A stretch of 64,000 bases of DNA, from positions 124,001 through 188,000 of the forward strand of contig JAHCHE010000003.1 of assembly GCA_026129905.1 (NCBI GenBank). The letters run 5' to 3'. The notes beneath the pieces are model-generated. The model searched no databases, had not been told where the DNA came from, and saw nothing but the letters and a program-made list of their open reading frames with translations. Position 1 is the first letter of the stretch; each line of letters begins with the position of its first letter. Below, one piece after another: positions 9,894-15,276 of the stretch. The stretch is from Bryobacteraceae bacterium (GTDB lineage: Bacteria; Acidobacteriota; Terriglobia; Bryobacterales; Bryobacteraceae). A program made the translations under genes and the position numbers.

Positions 9894-12035
9894 GTGCGCC
9901 GATCGTTTCCGTCGCGGCGGTCCGTCATGGCCGGCTTTGCCGCCGCGGTCGTTCGACCCAGACGGGTGGCCGCCGCCGGCATCGAAGCCTCGCGCGGCGT
10001 GCTACCGGCGCCGGACGATCCTCGGGAATGGCCGGCCTTCCGCGATGCGCTGGTCCGCTGGCGCGAGGATACCCGGGCGGCCATCCGCTACAACGGCAGC
10101 CTGTACGCCCGCGACGACCTGCGCTGGACGGCGTCGTGCTATTCCTGCTGTTTTCTGATGATGTGCGATGAGGCCTTCTACGACCCCATCGCCGGCCGGT
10201 TCACCGTCGAATCCTTCCTTGACGGTGGCGAGCGCGATTTCGGAGGCTTCGACGCCGTCGTTCTGTGGCATGCATACCCGCGCATCGGCATCGACCCCCG
10301 CAACCAGTACGATTTCTACCGGGATATGCCGGGCGGCCTCGCCGGCCTTCGAAGCCTGTCGGACCGCTTCCACGCCCGCGGCGTGAAGGTCTTCCTCAAC
10401 TACAATCCCTGGGACACGGGGACGCGCCGCGAACGCGCCGCCGACGTCGATGTCCTTTGCGAGCTGGTCCGGGAGATCGACGCGGACGGCATCTTCCTCG
10501 ATACGTTGAAGGAGGGCGATCGCGAATTCCGTTCCAGGCTGGACGCGGCGCGCCGCGGCGTCGCGCTGGAGTCCGAACTGGCCCTGCCCGTCGAGCGCAT
10601 CGCCGATCATCACCTGTCCTGGGCGCAGTGGTTTGACGACAGCCGGACGCCGGGCGTGCTTCGCAACAAGTGGATCGAGCGCCGTCACATGCAGCGCCAG
10701 ATCCGCCGGTGGAACGACGATCACGCGGCGGAGTTGCAGGCCGCGTGGATGAACGGCAGCGGCATCCTGGTCTGGGAGAACGTGTTCGGCAGCTTTGTCG
10801 GCTGGAACGCGCGCGATCGCTCGACGCTGAAGTCGATGCTCCCGGTTCAGCGGCGTTATGCCCCGCTGTTTTCCGGCGAGGCCTGGACGCCGCTGGTAGC
10901 GGCTGAGATGCCCGGCGCGTTCGCGAGCCTCTGGGAGGGGCGCGGTCTGCGGCTGTGGACGCTGGTGAACCGGACGGACCGGGCGATCGAAGGTCCTCTG
11001 CTCCGCATCGGCGCCGCGCCCGGCGAACGCGCCTGGGATCTCATCGCCGGCCGCGAGGCTGCCTCCACCCGAGACGGCGCCCATTTGATACTCACGGGAA
11101 CCATTCCAGCGAGCGGCATCGGGGGATTCGTTTGCGGCCCGGCGGAAGCGCTCGGTCGGGACTTCGAGGCGTTTCTGGCGGCGCAAGGCCGGCCGCATTC
11201 GGCCGCTTCGCGGGACGCCGCCCCGCCGCTCCGCCAAACCAGGCTGAAGGCCGTGCCGCGAGCGCCGATCCGCGGCTTGCCCGAAGAAATGGTTCGAGTC
11301 CCCGCCGCCCGTCTTGCGCTGACAACCGAATTTCGGACGCGCGAATGCGGCTTCTATGAATCGCGCAACGAACTGGTGCGGGAACGCGGACTGGCATTGA
11401 ACAAGCCGCGCCGGATCACCCGAGAGGTGGACCTCGAGGCGTTTGCGATCGACCGGACGCCCGTCACTAACGCCGAGTTCGCCCGGTTCCTGAAAGCGTC
11501 GGGCTACCGGCCGCGTCATCCCGAGAACTTCCTCAAGCACTGGAGCGATGGCGAGCCGCCCGCCGCCGCGCTGAACCATCCCGTGACATACGTGGACCTG
11601 GACGATGCCCGGGCCTACGCGCGCTGGGCCCGGAAGCGCCTGCCTCGCGAAGAAGAATGGCAAATTGCCGCCCAGGGTTCGGACGGCCGCCGCTACCCGT
11701 GGGGTAACGAATTCCGGCCGGGATTCGCCAACGGCGGCGAGTCCGGCGGGACGACGCCGGTCAAAGCGTATCCCGAGGGCCGCTCGCCGTTCGGCTGTTA
11801 CGACATGTGCGGCAATGTGTGGGAGTGGACCGAGAGCGAGCGCGCCGATGGCCGGACGCGCTTCGCCATCGTTCGCGGCGGCTCGTTCTACAAGGCCGAA
11901 GGCTCGCATTGGTACATGGACGGCGGTCCGCAGCCGTGCGATTTCGCCGCGAAATTCCTGTTGATGTGGCCGGGGCTTGACCGCTGCGCGACAATCGGCT
12001 TCCGGTGCGCCGCCGGCCTGGCGCCGGCGGCTTAA
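9894..12035 (+). CDS. Exported TIM-barrel-like protein fused to an FGE-sulfatase-like domain
   Basis: A 713-aa protein with an Arg-rich signal (RRSFPSRRSVMAGFAAAVV, possibly Tat). Residues ~40-440 look like a glycoside-hydrolase-type barrel: FDAVVLWHAYPRIGIDPRN, VFLNYNPWDTG, then DGIFLDT near residue 200 and ALESELAL, followed by a beta-rich cap. Residues ~465-710 form a formylglycine-generating-enzyme-type domain with DRTPVTNAEFARFL, RLPREEEWQIAA, CGNVWEW and RGGSF. The two active-site cysteines that normally follow GGSF in true FGE are missing here (it reads GGSFYKAEGSHWY), so sulfatase activation is unlikely. Starts with GTG 6 nt after the ThuA stop, without its own ribosome-binding site. 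Confidence 0.75.
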   Translation: MRRSFPSRRSVMAGFAAAVVRPRRVAAAGIEASRGVLPAPDDPREWPAFRDALVRWREDTRAAIRYNGSLYARDDLRWTASCYSCCFLMMCDEAFYDPIAGRFTVESFLDGGERDFGGFDAVVLWHAYPRIGIDPRNQYDFYRDMPGGLAGLRSLSDRFHARGVKVFLNYNPWDTGTRRERAADVDVLCELVREIDADGIFLDTLKEGDREFRSRLDAARRGVALESELALPVERIADHHLSWAQWFDDSRTPGVLRNKWIERRHMQRQIRRWNDDHAAELQAAWMNGSGILVWENVFGSFVGWNARDRSTLKSMLPVQRRYAPLFSGEAWTPLVAAEMPGAFASLWEGRGLRLWTLVNRTDRAIEGPLLRIGAAPGERAWDLIAGREAASTRDGAHLILTGTIPASGIGGFVCGPAEALGRDFEAFLAAQGRPHSAASRDAAPPLRQTRLKAVPRAPIRGLPEEMVRVPAARLALTTEFRTRECGFYESRNELVRERGLALNKPRRITREVDLEAFAIDRTPVTNAEFARFLKASGYRPRHPENFLKHWSDGEPPAAALNHPVTYVDLDDARAYARWARKRLPREEEWQIAAQGSDGRRYPWGNEFRPGFANGGESGGTTPVKAYPEGRSPFGCYDMCGNVWEWTESERADGRTRFAIVRGGSFYKAEGSHWYMDGGPQPCDFAAKFLLMWPGLDRCATIGFRCAAGLAPAA

Positions 12036-12213: not shown

Positions 12214-12588
12214 ATGAATAATCTGCTTCGGGTGGCGGTTTGCCTGCTGTTCGCCGCGCTGGCTGCGCATAACCAGGAAAACCGCAATCCGCACGGCGGG
12301 ATGACCGAATGCGGACGCAAAATGATGAGCTGCATGTGCCCGAAGATCGTGGACGACATCCAGCAGTACGAAGTTGCCAAGTGCCAGAAGGCGCCGGCGG
12401 ATCAGAAGAAAGACTGCCTGAAGAGCGCATACCAGCGGACCACCCATTGCCGCGTCATGGCCGACGCCCACCGCGTCCCGGAGTGGAACCAGTTTGTCCG
12501 AAAGAACGGCATTCTCAAAATGTGCGGCACGCAGTGCCACCCGGAGAAATGCAAGTGCAACGCCGATCAGCCGTGCGCGCCCCACTAA
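12214..12588 (+). CDS. Small cysteine-rich secreted protein of unknown function
   Basis: 124 aa with a signal peptide (MNNLLRVAVCLLFAALAAH). The mature part has eleven cysteines (33, 40, 42, 57, 68, 79, 104, 108, 113, 115, 121) plus several His and Met, and many Lys. The C-terminal CGTQCHPEKCKC block could bind metal or form disulfides. I do not recognise the family. It has a clear GGAAGGAG ribosome-binding site 5 nt before ATG 12214. Its last 4 bp overlap the convergent glycosyltransferase gene. Confidence 0.75.
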   Translation: MNNLLRVAVCLLFAALAAHNQENRNPHGGMTECGRKMMSCMCPKIVDDIQQYEVAKCQKAPADQKKDCLKSAYQRTTHCRVMADAHRVPEWNQFVRKNGILKMCGTQCHPEKCKCNADQPCAPH

Positions 12589-13802
12589 TTCGGTGAAGCG
12601 CCAGCCTGGAGCCGGCGACGGAAGATCTCGGCCAGGCGCATGCCGTTCTTTTTGAGATTGAAGACCTCCACGATTCGGCCGCGGGCGGATTGTCCCAGGG
12701 AGCGGCGCAGATCCGGATCGTCGAGAAGTTGGCTGATCGCGGCGGCGAGACCCTCCTCATCGGAAGGCGGAACCAGGAGACCGTCCACGCCGTGGCGTAT
12801 CAGTTCGGGAATGCCCGCGACGTGCGTGGCCACGCAGGCGACCTCCATCGTCATAGCTTCCATCAGCACGACCGGTACGCCCTCGTCGAGGCTCGATAGC
12901 GCAAACAGGTCCGCCTGGGCGTACAAAGCGGCGACGCGGTCGTGATTGACCTTGCCGTCGAAGATCACGCGCTGGCCCAGTCCCAGGTCGGCCGCTTGCG
13001 CTTTCAGCGCGGCGGCATCCGGCCCATCGCCAACAAGCCTGAGCCTGACGCTATGGCCGTCGCGAACGACGCGGGCAATAGCATTCAGCAACACGTGGTG
13101 GGCTTTCACCGGCACGAGTTGTCCCACCGAAAGGATCTCGAAGACGGGCGGGGCGGGGCGGAAGGAGCCCGGAACGTACGCCGCCGGATCGACGCCAAGG
13201 CGGCACACCTCCACCTTCGGCTGCGCGGAAGCCCCACAGGCCAGCACGATCCGGCTCCTGGCAAAGTGGCTGATGCCGCATACGAACGAAGACGCCTGGA
13301 CCTTTTCCGCGAGACGGAACGATACGGGATCGACAAATTCGGCCCGGCCGTGGAACGTGATGGACATGGTCAGCGGGAACACCCGCGCGACCAGCATTCC
13401 CACCGTCGAGGAATAGTGGACGTGAAAGTGGGAGATGCCCCGCTCCTTGATCCAATGGCCCGCAATCACCGCTTCGCCGAAATAGAAAAGCTGCCGCAGA
13501 GCGCTCCCGGCGCCGGTACCAAGGCGAAGCGCGCAGACAAGTCCGCTGAGATAGGCGGCGGGCCGCGTGAATAGCGTCATCGCGTGAATGCGAGCGGCGG
13601 CGAGGAGCGGAGTCGATTTGACGTTGAGCGTCGTCGCGGCCAAGGCCCGCTCCGCGGGGGCCAGCTCATTGTCGGGCCGGTCCGGGGGCGAGATCGAAAC
13701 CACTAAGATATCGAAGCCGAGAGAGCGGAGCGTCTCGACTTCACGCACCAGGTATGTGTGATTCACCGCCAGATACTGACTGACGAGGTACGCGAGTTTC
13801 AT
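12585..13802 (-). CDS. Glycosyltransferase family 4
   Basis: A 405-aa GT-B fold glycosyltransferase. The N-terminal acceptor half starts MKLAYLVSQYLAVNHTYLV; the C-terminal donor half has VGQLVPVKAHHVLLNAI, VRLRLVGDGPD, LFALSSLDEGVPVVLMEAM and VPPSDEEGLAAAI, the typical nucleotide-sugar binding blocks including the E-x7-E-like EGVPVVLMEAM. It acts at the cytoplasmic face of the membrane, probably adding a sugar during exopolysaccharide or lipid-linked oligosaccharide synthesis, given the neighbouring nucleotide-sugar dehydrogenase, second glycosyltransferase and epimerase. Donor and acceptor are unknown. Confidence 0.9.
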   Translation of the reverse strand: MKLAYLVSQYLAVNHTYLVREVETLRSLGFDILVVSISPPDRPDNELAPAERALAATTLNVKSTPLLAAARIHAMTLFTRPAAYLSGLVCALRLGTGAGSALRQLFYFGEAVIAGHWIKERGISHFHVHYSSTVGMLVARVFPLTMSITFHGRAEFVDPVSFRLAEKVQASSFVCGISHFARSRIVLACGASAQPKVEVCRLGVDPAAYVPGSFRPAPPVFEILSVGQLVPVKAHHVLLNAIARVVRDGHSVRLRLVGDGPDAAALKAQAADLGLGQRVIFDGKVNHDRVAALYAQADLFALSSLDEGVPVVLMEAMTMEVACVATHVAGIPELIRHGVDGLLVPPSDEEGLAAAISQLLDDPDLRRSLGQSARGRIVEVFNLKKNGMRLAEIFRRRLQAGASPN

Positions 13803-13830
13803 CCTTCGTTATGGCTCGGCGCTTTCGGTT

Positions 13831-13924
13831 GTGGGGCAGGTTGGCCGAAGGCAACCTGCGGGCCGATCGCCGATCGGCCCGGCGGCGGTTGGGAACCGCC
13901 GCGCAGGATGAGATCCTGCCCCAC
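13831..13924. repeat. Four consecutive hairpins enclosed by a 10-bp outer stem
   Basis: Outer arms GTGGGGCAGG (13831-13840) and CCTGCCCCAC (13915-13924) are perfectly complementary. Inside are four perfect hairpins placed head to tail: 13836-13859 (8 bp), 13859-13881 (10 bp, 3-nt loop), 13882-13902 (9 bp, 3-nt loop) and 13903-13919 (7 bp, 3-nt loop). The outer stem and the first and last hairpins compete for bases, so it could fold as a cruciform-like cluster or as a closed multi-branched structure. It sits in the 163-bp spacer between the glycosyltransferase start and the end of the AlgD-type gene. Confidence 0.85.
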
Positions 13925-13965
13925 GGGTCGTGGCTGAACTGGCATGGTGATTTCCTGACCGATAC

Positions 13966-15276
13966 TTAACTCGGTTCCGTCGTTCGGGCGAGAAGCGCGG
14001 GTCGCGCCGCGTCGTCCATGGCGCCCACAAGGTCCAGCGCCGGCAATCCACGCGCGGCAATGCGACGCAGATCCTCCGGGGCCGGCTTCTGGGCAATGAT
14101 GACGTGATCGGCCCAGTCGGCGAGCGCATCGATGTCGTTCACAAGCAGGCGTTCGATGTGCGGCAACGCGGCCAGAACGAACTGGCGATTGCTGCCGTAG
14201 ATCCGATCGAGCCGGATGCGCGGATCGAAAACGCGAAGCTCGCGGCCTTTGCCGATCAGGCGCTCGATCAAGGCCACCACGGGGCTTTCGCGCAGGTCGT
14301 CCGTGTTCTCCTTGAAGGCCAGACCCAGAATGCCAATGCGGGCCGCCGGCAGTTCCATTGCCGCTTCAATCGCCCGCCGGAGGTGCTCTTCGTTGCTCGG
14401 CAAGACCGATTCCAGAATCGGGAGGTTCAAATCGAGCCTTGTGGCGCGATAGACCAGCGCGCGCAGGTCCTTTGGCAGGCAGGACCCCCCGAAGGCGAAG
14501 CCCGGCTTGAGGTAAGCCGGCGAAATGTTCAGGCGCTTGTCGCGGCACAGGATGTCCATCACTTCGGCGCCCGACACGCCGACGCTGGAGCACACCGCTC
14601 CGATCTCGTTCGCGAAGCCTACTTTCAGAGCGTGGAAACTGTTGCAGGCATACTTGATGGTTTCCGCGGTGCGCAATGAGACCATGCAGACTTCGGCGCC
14701 CAACCCGGCGTACAGCGCCGCAACGCGCCCCACCGCCACGCGGTCTTCGCCGCCGACCACCACCAAGGACGGGTCGAAGAAATCCCGAACGGCCGTGCCC
14801 TCGCGCAGGAACTCCGGATTGGAAACCACGCTGACCATCGGAGAGGCTTGAAACGCGGGAACCACCAGGTCTTCGCAGGTACCTGGAAACACGGTGCTGC
14901 GAACCGCCGCCACCAGCGGCTTCCGCCGTTGTCCGAGATGGCCGGCGATTTCCGCCGATGCCCGCTGAAGCTGCTCCAGGCTCAGGTCGCCGTTGCGCCG
15001 CGAAGGAGTTCCGACGCAGATCATGACGATGTCGGCTTCATCCAGGCTGCCGGCGATGTCTCCCGCCGCCGTCAGCCGTCCCGCGGCAACGTTCTTTCGG
15101 ACCAGCTCATCAAGCCCCGGTTCGTAGAAGGGCGACCGTCCGCCGAGAACGCTGTCCACCTTGTGCCGGTCCCGGTCCACACCGACAACATGGGCCCCCC
15201 GCTCGGCCAGACAGGCGGCCGTGACGCAGCCGACATAGCCAAGTCCGAGGACGACAATCTGCGTTTCTGACGCCAT
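13966..15276 (-). CDS. AlgD-type nucleotide-sugar dehydrogenase
   Basis: A 436-aa UDP-glucose/GDP-mannose dehydrogenase family protein, the same length as Pseudomonas AlgD. The N-terminal Rossmann motif is VVLGLGYVGCVTAACLAE; the middle helix reads NSFHALKVGFANEIG; the catalytic Cys266 sits in FGGSCLPKD. It oxidises a nucleotide hexose to the uronic acid with two NAD+. FHALK and GFAFGGSCLPKDLRAL favour the GDP-mannose branch, but UDP-sugars cannot be excluded. Transcribed towards the GT4 gene, divergent from the next glycosyltransferase, within a polysaccharide locus. Confidence 0.9.
   Translation of the reverse strand: MASETQIVVLGLGYVGCVTAACLAERGAHVVGVDRDRHKVDSVLGGRSPFYEPGLDELVRKNVAAGRLTAAGDIAGSLDEADIVMICVGTPSRRNGDLSLEQLQRASAEIAGHLGQRRKPLVAAVRSTVFPGTCEDLVVPAFQASPMVSVVSNPEFLREGTAVRDFFDPSLVVVGGEDRVAVGRVAALYAGLGAEVCMVSLRTAETIKYACNSFHALKVGFANEIGAVCSSVGVSGAEVMDILCRDKRLNISPAYLKPGFAFGGSCLPKDLRALVYRATRLDLNLPILESVLPSNEEHLRRAIEAAMELPAARIGILGLAFKENTDDLRESPVVALIERLIGKGRELRVFDPRIRLDRIYGSNRQFVLAALPHIERLLVNDIDALADWADHVIIAQKPAPEDLRRIAARGLPALDLVGAMDDAARPALLARTTEPS

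Follow-up and report, generated by a model that had tools for sequence, protein, structure and literature searches.

A dispersed REPIN-like repeat with double-hairpin ends in the Bryobacteraceae

How REP sequences originate and how they spread is still an open question. The published REPIN is described as a single long hairpin formed by end-to-end pairing (Bertels and Rainey 2011, PMC3116915). GTAG-tagged repeats are recorded as short palindromes of 20-40 bp in Proteobacteria, Cyanobacteria, Chloroflexi, and the PVC group (Di Nocera 2013, PMC3733652), and GTGG variants of the tag are also on record (PMC3733652, PMC6006769). TnpAREP has been called domesticated (PMC8266576). For the class 3 TnpAY1 proteins, about 600 associated structures are reported in Solibacter usitatus (Quentin 2018, PMC6006769). 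In the openly readable main texts of this literature, we found no description of a four-hairpin cassette, of an acidobacterial REPIN, or of GTGG-tagged repeats of such a kind in Acidobacteria. The element described here appears to be a new form of the known REP/REPIN repeats, one with double-hairpin ends.

The window, by which we mean the whole 64-kb stretch of DNA that was analysed, carries a REPIN-like cassette of four hairpins at 13831-13924 on the plus strand, probably a RAYT-type element that lacks its transposase; it was delimited from sequence, fold, BLAST, covariation, and a covariance model. The 5' tag GTGGG (13831-13835, plus strand) is a GTRG-type foot that pairs with 13920-13924, and a similar tag stands 5' of RAYT end hairpins. 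Four plus-strand hairpins follow, each defined by its arms and by covariation. On the left are the terminal hairpin H1 (13836-13859; GCAGGTTG..CAACCTGC, 8 bp, 8-nt loop) and the subterminal hairpin H2 (13860-13880; GGGCCGATC..GATCGGCCC, of the GGCCGATNG type, 9 bp, 3-nt loop). Beyond the single base at 13881, which forms the junction between the left and right ends, are the right subterminal hairpin H3 (13882-13902; GCGGCGGTT..AACCGCCGC, 9 bp, 3-nt loop) and the right terminal hairpin H4 (13903-13919; GCAGGAT..ATCCTGC, 7 bp, 3-nt loop). H2 can also be listed as 11-nt arms with 1 nt between them, a loop too tight for full closure. The 3' tag CCCAC (13920-13924, plus strand) is the inverse of the 5' tag.

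An earlier sequence-only reading had described the block as four head-to-tail perfect hairpins inside a 10-bp outer stem, and both the sequence and the arm listing bear this out: the outer arms GTGGGGCAGG (13831-13840) and CCTGCCCCAC (13915-13924) form 10 of 10 pairs. It had also placed every base in or next to a stem, with three loops of 3 nt; three of the four loops indeed have this length, and 13881 is the only base between stems. Five of the outer stem's pairs, the inner ones, are in competition with H1 and H4. Folded together with 10 nt on each side (13821-13934), the block reaches -73 kcal/mol, compared with -54.1 +/- 4.2 in shuffles (z -4.45). When hairpin runs are defined by a stem of at least 7, a loop of 3-8, and a gap of at most 1, the longest run in the window is four, and ten dinucleotide shuffles yield a maximum of one.

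The block occupies a 163-nt gap between two minus-strand genes identified from ORFs and Pfam, a group 1 glycosyltransferase (12585-13802) and a UDP-glucose/GDP-mannose dehydrogenase (13966-15276), neighbours that agree with the polysaccharide locus proposed earlier. The repeat extends past 13924, and the right-hand sequence that it has in common with other copies in the same genome reaches about 13969. This stretch (13925-13969, plus strand) is the right arm of a larger unit and contains a terminal inverted repeat at 13947-13966 and CTTAA at 13965-13969; within the latter, the dehydrogenase gene on the minus strand has its stop codon (13966-13968). Judged against other copies of this genome, only the remnant CGGTT (13826-13830, plus strand) is left of the larger unit's left arm, the remainder being absent. 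Elsewhere in the window, the top-ranked inverted repeat lies at 10904-11043, with 21-nt arms that are 90% complementary and 98 nt apart.

BLAST of 13826-13929 against the genome (8,571,077 bases in 71 contigs) returned 59 matches, which fall at 40 distinct places when the window copy is counted; these 40 places were scored among 106 first-look candidates. Identity in the longest of the other copies is 95-96%, over 99-100 bases of the query. A search with the outer arm, which had been proposed as a check, was less informative. The bare arm GTGGGGCAGG has 67 matches in the genome versus 42 for its reversed control, which is poor discrimination, but both perfect arms do recur about 95 bp apart at two places. 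The family is made visible by whole-block BLAST and by the covariance model, and the bare-arm search is a weak test of it.

Relatives also carry the repeat. A first BLAST with one copy (L044) gave matches in 8 of 61 genomes, the window's own included. A covariance model (R1), built from 18 copies of six genera (alignment A2), detects the cassette in 41 of 150 genomes of the same family and in 28 of 76 genera, again with the window's own counted; at most 28 candidates were scored per genome and both strands of a palindrome count, and the per-genome numbers are not copy numbers. Under stricter filters, by which weak matches can be lost, a phylum-wide draw gave matches in 2 of 199 genomes, the window's own and one other of its family. 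With 40 places in its own genome and matches in 41 of 150 family genomes, the block is neither single-copy nor without relatives, and the suggestion of a palindromic repeat family stands. The accompanying suggestion that the family is intergenic applies to the window copy, the one copy whose position between two genes was checked. The spacer between the left and right halves is one base in the window copy, a few nucleotides in genome G163, up to about 25 nt in G001, G015, and G020, and about 55 nt in G082 (L239).

The 18 copies in alignment A2 were hand-picked from six genera by a pattern that required the outer tags, so tag conservation in A2 is not independent evidence. Tested against this alignment, a structure of four hairpins plus a 5-bp outer stem pairs in 96.8% of cells versus 91.8 in shuffles, with 31 double-change cells versus 9.9. 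Sliding the partners by one to three columns lowers pairing to 32.5-51.3%. Two further measures are weak ones: the number of pairs with a double change (8 versus 4.9 in shuffles, a value reached by 5 of 500 shuffles) and the number of further pair types (15 versus 15.6). Alignment column 10 takes part in both competing structures. Its long-stem pair 10-110, the tenth pair, is broken in 9 of 18 copies, whereas its H1 pair 10-26 is kept in all 18, nine of them with both bases changed. It follows that the hairpins are kept and the long outer stem is not; the failure of the tenth pair in half of the copies rules out the long stem as the kept form. The long-stem structure nevertheless scores well overall, because H2 and H3 are common to both structures. 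The alternative fold noted in the sequence-only reading, with the outer stem in place of the first and last hairpins, is therefore possible in the window copy but is not the conserved part across the 18 copies. The compensatory changes fit DNA hairpins as well as RNA.

Potential partners of such a repeat were sought among tyrosine transposases. Pfam Y1_Tnp has two matches in the window's genome and 48 in seven relatives. The survey returned 32 loci, 13 of which, belonging to one RAYT subgroup, were read closely. A script detected a 10-nt inverted seed between the flanks in 10 of the 13, and one locus that it missed (L119) shows the seed by eye. Clear GTGGGGCRG hairpins in inverted orientation are present at L119, L124, L126, L133, and L142. 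Nine of the proteins from this subgroup (set A1) all match Y1_Tnp (PF01797) and also NCBIfam REP_Tyr_transpos (NF047646), where member 1 scores 59.3 bits, below the curated 80. Their best solved structure is TnpArep 4er8 (E 2.5e-10), and the motif YIExNP is invariant among them. Other Y1 proteins, at L132 (G001) and L137 (G036), have a YVVxxQ motif and resemble the published class 3 group.

When named genomes were scanned with A1, 472 loci were identified. Among the best 80 of these, most are acidobacterial (Bryobacterales, Solibacteraceae, and other Acidobacteria), which points to an acidobacterium of the Bryobacterales as the host of the block; some belong to Hymenobacter, Spirosoma, Planctomycetes, and Chloroflexi. 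In 52 of the 73 loci with enough flank on both sides, the two 300-nt flanks are linked by an inverted repeat of 12 nt or more, versus 8 of 217 mismatched flank pairs. A GTRG tag with a hairpin is found on both sides in 36 of 71 named loci, upstream in 52 of 71, and downstream in 44 of 71. The same test applied 400, 700, and 1000 nt further out gives 1/62, 0/61, and 0/61 for both sides, 8/62, 10/61, and 7/61 upstream, and 3/62, 3/61, and 5/61 downstream. A strict automatic test for a tag with two hairpins finds them upstream in 16 of 71 loci (controls 0/62, 4/61, and 2/61), downstream in 13 of 71, and on both sides in 6 of 71, the controls for the last two being 0. Separately, about a dozen of the 30 loci L252-L281 show by eye a TGAGAANTT-like motif soon after the second upstream hairpin and before the gene start; it could be a candidate promoter or binding site.

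One group of these transposases has end hairpins of the cassette's own type. RAYTs were searched for in 17 genomes; 16 of these gave matches, 84 in total, and 30 of the loci were read. GGTTG-type terminal hairpins were identified in six of the 30, in six genomes, all of which also carry the cassette. Two hairpins are present on both sides at L270 (G001), L259 (G162), and L264 (G147). The left subterminal hairpin is degenerate at L262 (G144), as is the right end at L255 (G015), and L261 (G020) is without its right end. Subterminal hairpins of the GGTTG-type loci are of the CCGATTG type, with CCGGTTG in the right end of L259, and H2-type hairpins adjoin the RAYT genes at L270, L255, L259, and L264. 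The RAYT gene of L270 has an in-frame stop codon.

In a 97-row RAYT tree, the eight rows with GGTTG-type ends, which represent six distinct genes, two of them present in both collections, require one change; the fork has an SH-aLRT of 84 and is not starred. With nine dropped rows restored, including two hand-labelled GGTTG (L157 and L186), the GGTTG label needs three changes versus a shuffled mean of 9.7, and a restored-row tree that keeps all ten GGTTG rows together is not rejected (AU 0.549). At the two loci read in the window's genome assembly (L112/L256 and L111/L279; a third, partial match lies on contig C32), we found no intact RAYT with GGTTG-type ends. L112/L256 has GTGGCG-type ends, and L111/L279, which is cut by a contig end, has related hairpins of different sequence. 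At about 1845-2020 of L112 (G000:C71), a tandem array with a CCCAGCACGA-like unit crosses the 3' end of the RAYT ORF.

Overall, the block is probably a small mobile element of the REP/RAYT kind, a non-autonomous, REPIN-like miniature without a transposase. REP-type Y1 HUH transposase genes of this bacterial family are enclosed by two inverted ends, and at the best-preserved loci each end combines a GTGG tag with two hairpins, one terminal and one subterminal. The block would then correspond to a left end (tag-H1-H2) followed by a right end (H3-H4-tag), the transposase gene between them having been lost. Two double-hairpin ends joined in this way give four hairpins enclosed by inverted tags, and full-length elements would carry the RAYT gene at the position of junction 13881. 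The block is dispersed, is conserved as hairpins, and is in its architecture like the ends of one RAYT group; that a RAYT acts on the cassette, and in what manner, we infer. The hairpins would fold when the DNA is single-stranded, for example on the lagging-strand template. The RAYT would recognise the tag and terminal hairpin and nick near the tag, and the nicked piece could be copied, or transferred, to a new site. If the analogy with IS608 and the TnpAREP of E. coli, Stenotrophomonas, and Marinomonas, as presented in PMC8266576, holds, the tag would direct the nicking of folded single-stranded DNA to one strand. The genomes compared revealed no insertion event, excision product, or empty site.

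Other explanations have to be weighed against this reading. Chance palindromes in G+C-rich DNA have base composition alone in their favour, and the z of -4.45, the shuffles that never place more than one hairpin in a row, and above all the copy number, which refutes the idea, leave it with practically no probability. Alternatively, the block might be a structured RNA whose fold is under selection in mRNA, for example as a terminator, a processing signal, or a cis-regulatory element. The very stable fold, the compensatory changes, and the position between two co-directional genes are all consistent with this. However, DNA hairpins that serve as recognition sites of a transposase should show the same compensatory pattern, many of the similar copies have unrelated flanks, transposase genes are bordered by hairpins of the block's type, and Rfam at the gathering threshold gives only a tRNA in the window. 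We regard a structured RNA as very improbable, but the block may have a secondary effect on host mRNA.

MITEs are short, non-coding, and present in multiple copies. The block could be the interior of such an element, moved by a classical TIR transposon with CTNAG-like ends in the window's genome, the hairpins being passengers and the RAYTs uninvolved. Among 30 oriented copies (of the 40 places) in this genome, the left arm of the larger unit, with consensus AGCGACTGTCAGAAAATAACAATTCCAAACCGCGGTT, is present in 15 after three of 18 left matches were discarded by eye, the right arm, ATGTCGTGGCTGAACTGGCATGGTTATTTCCTAACGGACGCT, in 13, and both arms, with terminal inverted repeats, in 7. The outer parts of the arms are imperfect inverted repeats ending near CTNAG, and the shared flanks end at such sites on both sides; by eye, only some of the seven copies that keep both ends agree in the variable base. 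Fuller copies of the unit are about 190 bp long, and its terminal bases are still visible by eye in the internally deleted copies L045, L055, and L057. Flanks are also shared in other genomes: 8 of 20 copies in G036 lie in a unit with CTAG ends and two more share some flank, 17 of 20 in G020 share another flank, and 4 of 19 in G163 share a short one-sided flank. Yet ten of the 20 G036 copies share none, and 15 of the 19 cassettes fetched from G163 have flanks unlike any other copy's above the shuffle control, though the cassettes are alike. In G163, T precedes the tag in 17 of 19 copies and A follows it in 15 of 19. The enclosing flanks change from genus to genus, yet the cassette persists, and hairpins of the same type are carried by RAYT genes. 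Within 1.4 or 3.2 kb of the examined matches in the window's genome and G036, we saw no full-length element with CTNAG-like TIRs; a limited search near these matches, short of a systematic ORF scan, brought up neither a transposase nor a second inverted end at transposon distance. Because half of the G036 copies and most of those in G163 have no shared flank, a MITE is not the sole explanation. We judge it unlikely as an account of the block, and as a main reading we place it below the RAYT one, keeping it as a rival and for the larger unit.

What spreads is often a unit that extends beyond the cassette, and its spread need not be driven by a RAYT. Given its CTNAG-like inverted ends, a second transposase may have spread the copies in the window's genome, where the block also lies inside this unit. 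We hold that a RAYT-type cassette has been carried by other units in several lineages; the window copy may last have been moved by a RAYT or by another enzyme. More speculatively, a family of single-stranded DNA transposons, with RAYT genes inside two-hairpin inverted ends, may still move whole in these acidobacteria, in contrast to the domestication stated for TnpAREP (PMC8266576), the four-hairpin cassette being its miniature, captured more than once into unrelated TIR-type miniature elements; one repeat would then use two transposition chemistries. This extended scenario is possible, but we hold it only tentatively.

Several observations concern the makeup of the larger units. They look mosaic, since in the window's genome TIR-type ends like those around the cassette stand beside other hairpins, for example AAGCCGGTTGGAAACCGGCTT (L099 and L098, G000). 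In three copies from G036 (L351-L353), the palindrome GGGCCGGGCATGCCCGGCCC is fused to a CTAG-type end similar to the TIR, and a similar palindrome lies beside the RAYT at L268. At 645-1480 of L049 (G000:C17), two opposite cassettes bracket a BrnT-like toxin frame (below the Pfam cut-off) and a CopG-type antitoxin gene, with TIR-like ends outermost; the whole is possibly a composite unit. This 1.2-kb stretch with a cassette on each side was rejected as a transposase element, as it encodes the toxin-antitoxin-like pair and no transposase.

Full-length forms, with a transposase between hairpin ends, and miniatures, with joined ends, coexist in one bacterial family, so that the transition from an IS200-like transposon to a REPIN becomes open to direct testing. 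The similar hairpin sequences and the gene tree allow both forms to be followed. In addition, the occurrence of the cassette in different flanking units across genera is a case of one small repeat using two carriers.

Among known systems, MITEs are resembled most by the outer inverted-end unit that encloses many copies in the window's genome, but the cassette differs in that no target duplication is shown for it and no classical transposase is linked to it by the TIR matches examined. Class 3 TnpAY1 proteins, as reported in PMC6006769, are likewise linked to high-copy, unusual hairpin structures in related bacteria; their foot is CnGA and their motif Y----Q, whereas here we find GTGG and YIExNP. 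The TIRYT/TIRtron systems of PMC3733652, which include an acidobacterial group, resemble the full-length loci in having a tyrosine transposase flanked by inverted repeats, but the GGGGWSAS motif of some, not all, of the published TIRs does not fit the block's GGGGCAGG. Class 3 Y1 proteins and TIRYTs were both rejected as the partner of the cassette, their feet and motifs, as published, being different.

The GTAG-tagged REPs and REPtrons described by Di Nocera (2013, PMC3733652) are closer, having a GTRG-type foot directly 5' of a perfect palindrome and copies that flank tyrosine transposase genes; the cassette differs from them in its GTGG foot and in having two hairpins per end. As in REP sequences, GTGG at 13831 is followed by a hairpin, H1, with the inverse arrangement at the 3' end, and the repeat is dispersed in many copies (the 40 scored places). 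In relatives, repeats flank a REP-type transposase gene (36 of 71 loci, with block-type hairpins in six genomes), and in the window's own genome such flanking is limited to the related, truncated case L111. With the REPINs of Bertels and Rainey (2011, PMC3116915), the block shares two inverted, tagged palindromes, dispersal, a link to RAYTs, and possible end-to-end pairing. It differs from the REPINs described there in its two hairpins per half, four in total, which are kept as separate hairpins rather than as one long hairpin, in a spacer of 1 to about 55 nt, and in its acidobacterial host. As the cassette keeps a 5-bp outer stem and four hairpins in place of the long end-to-end hairpin, we call it REPIN-like rather than a REPIN.
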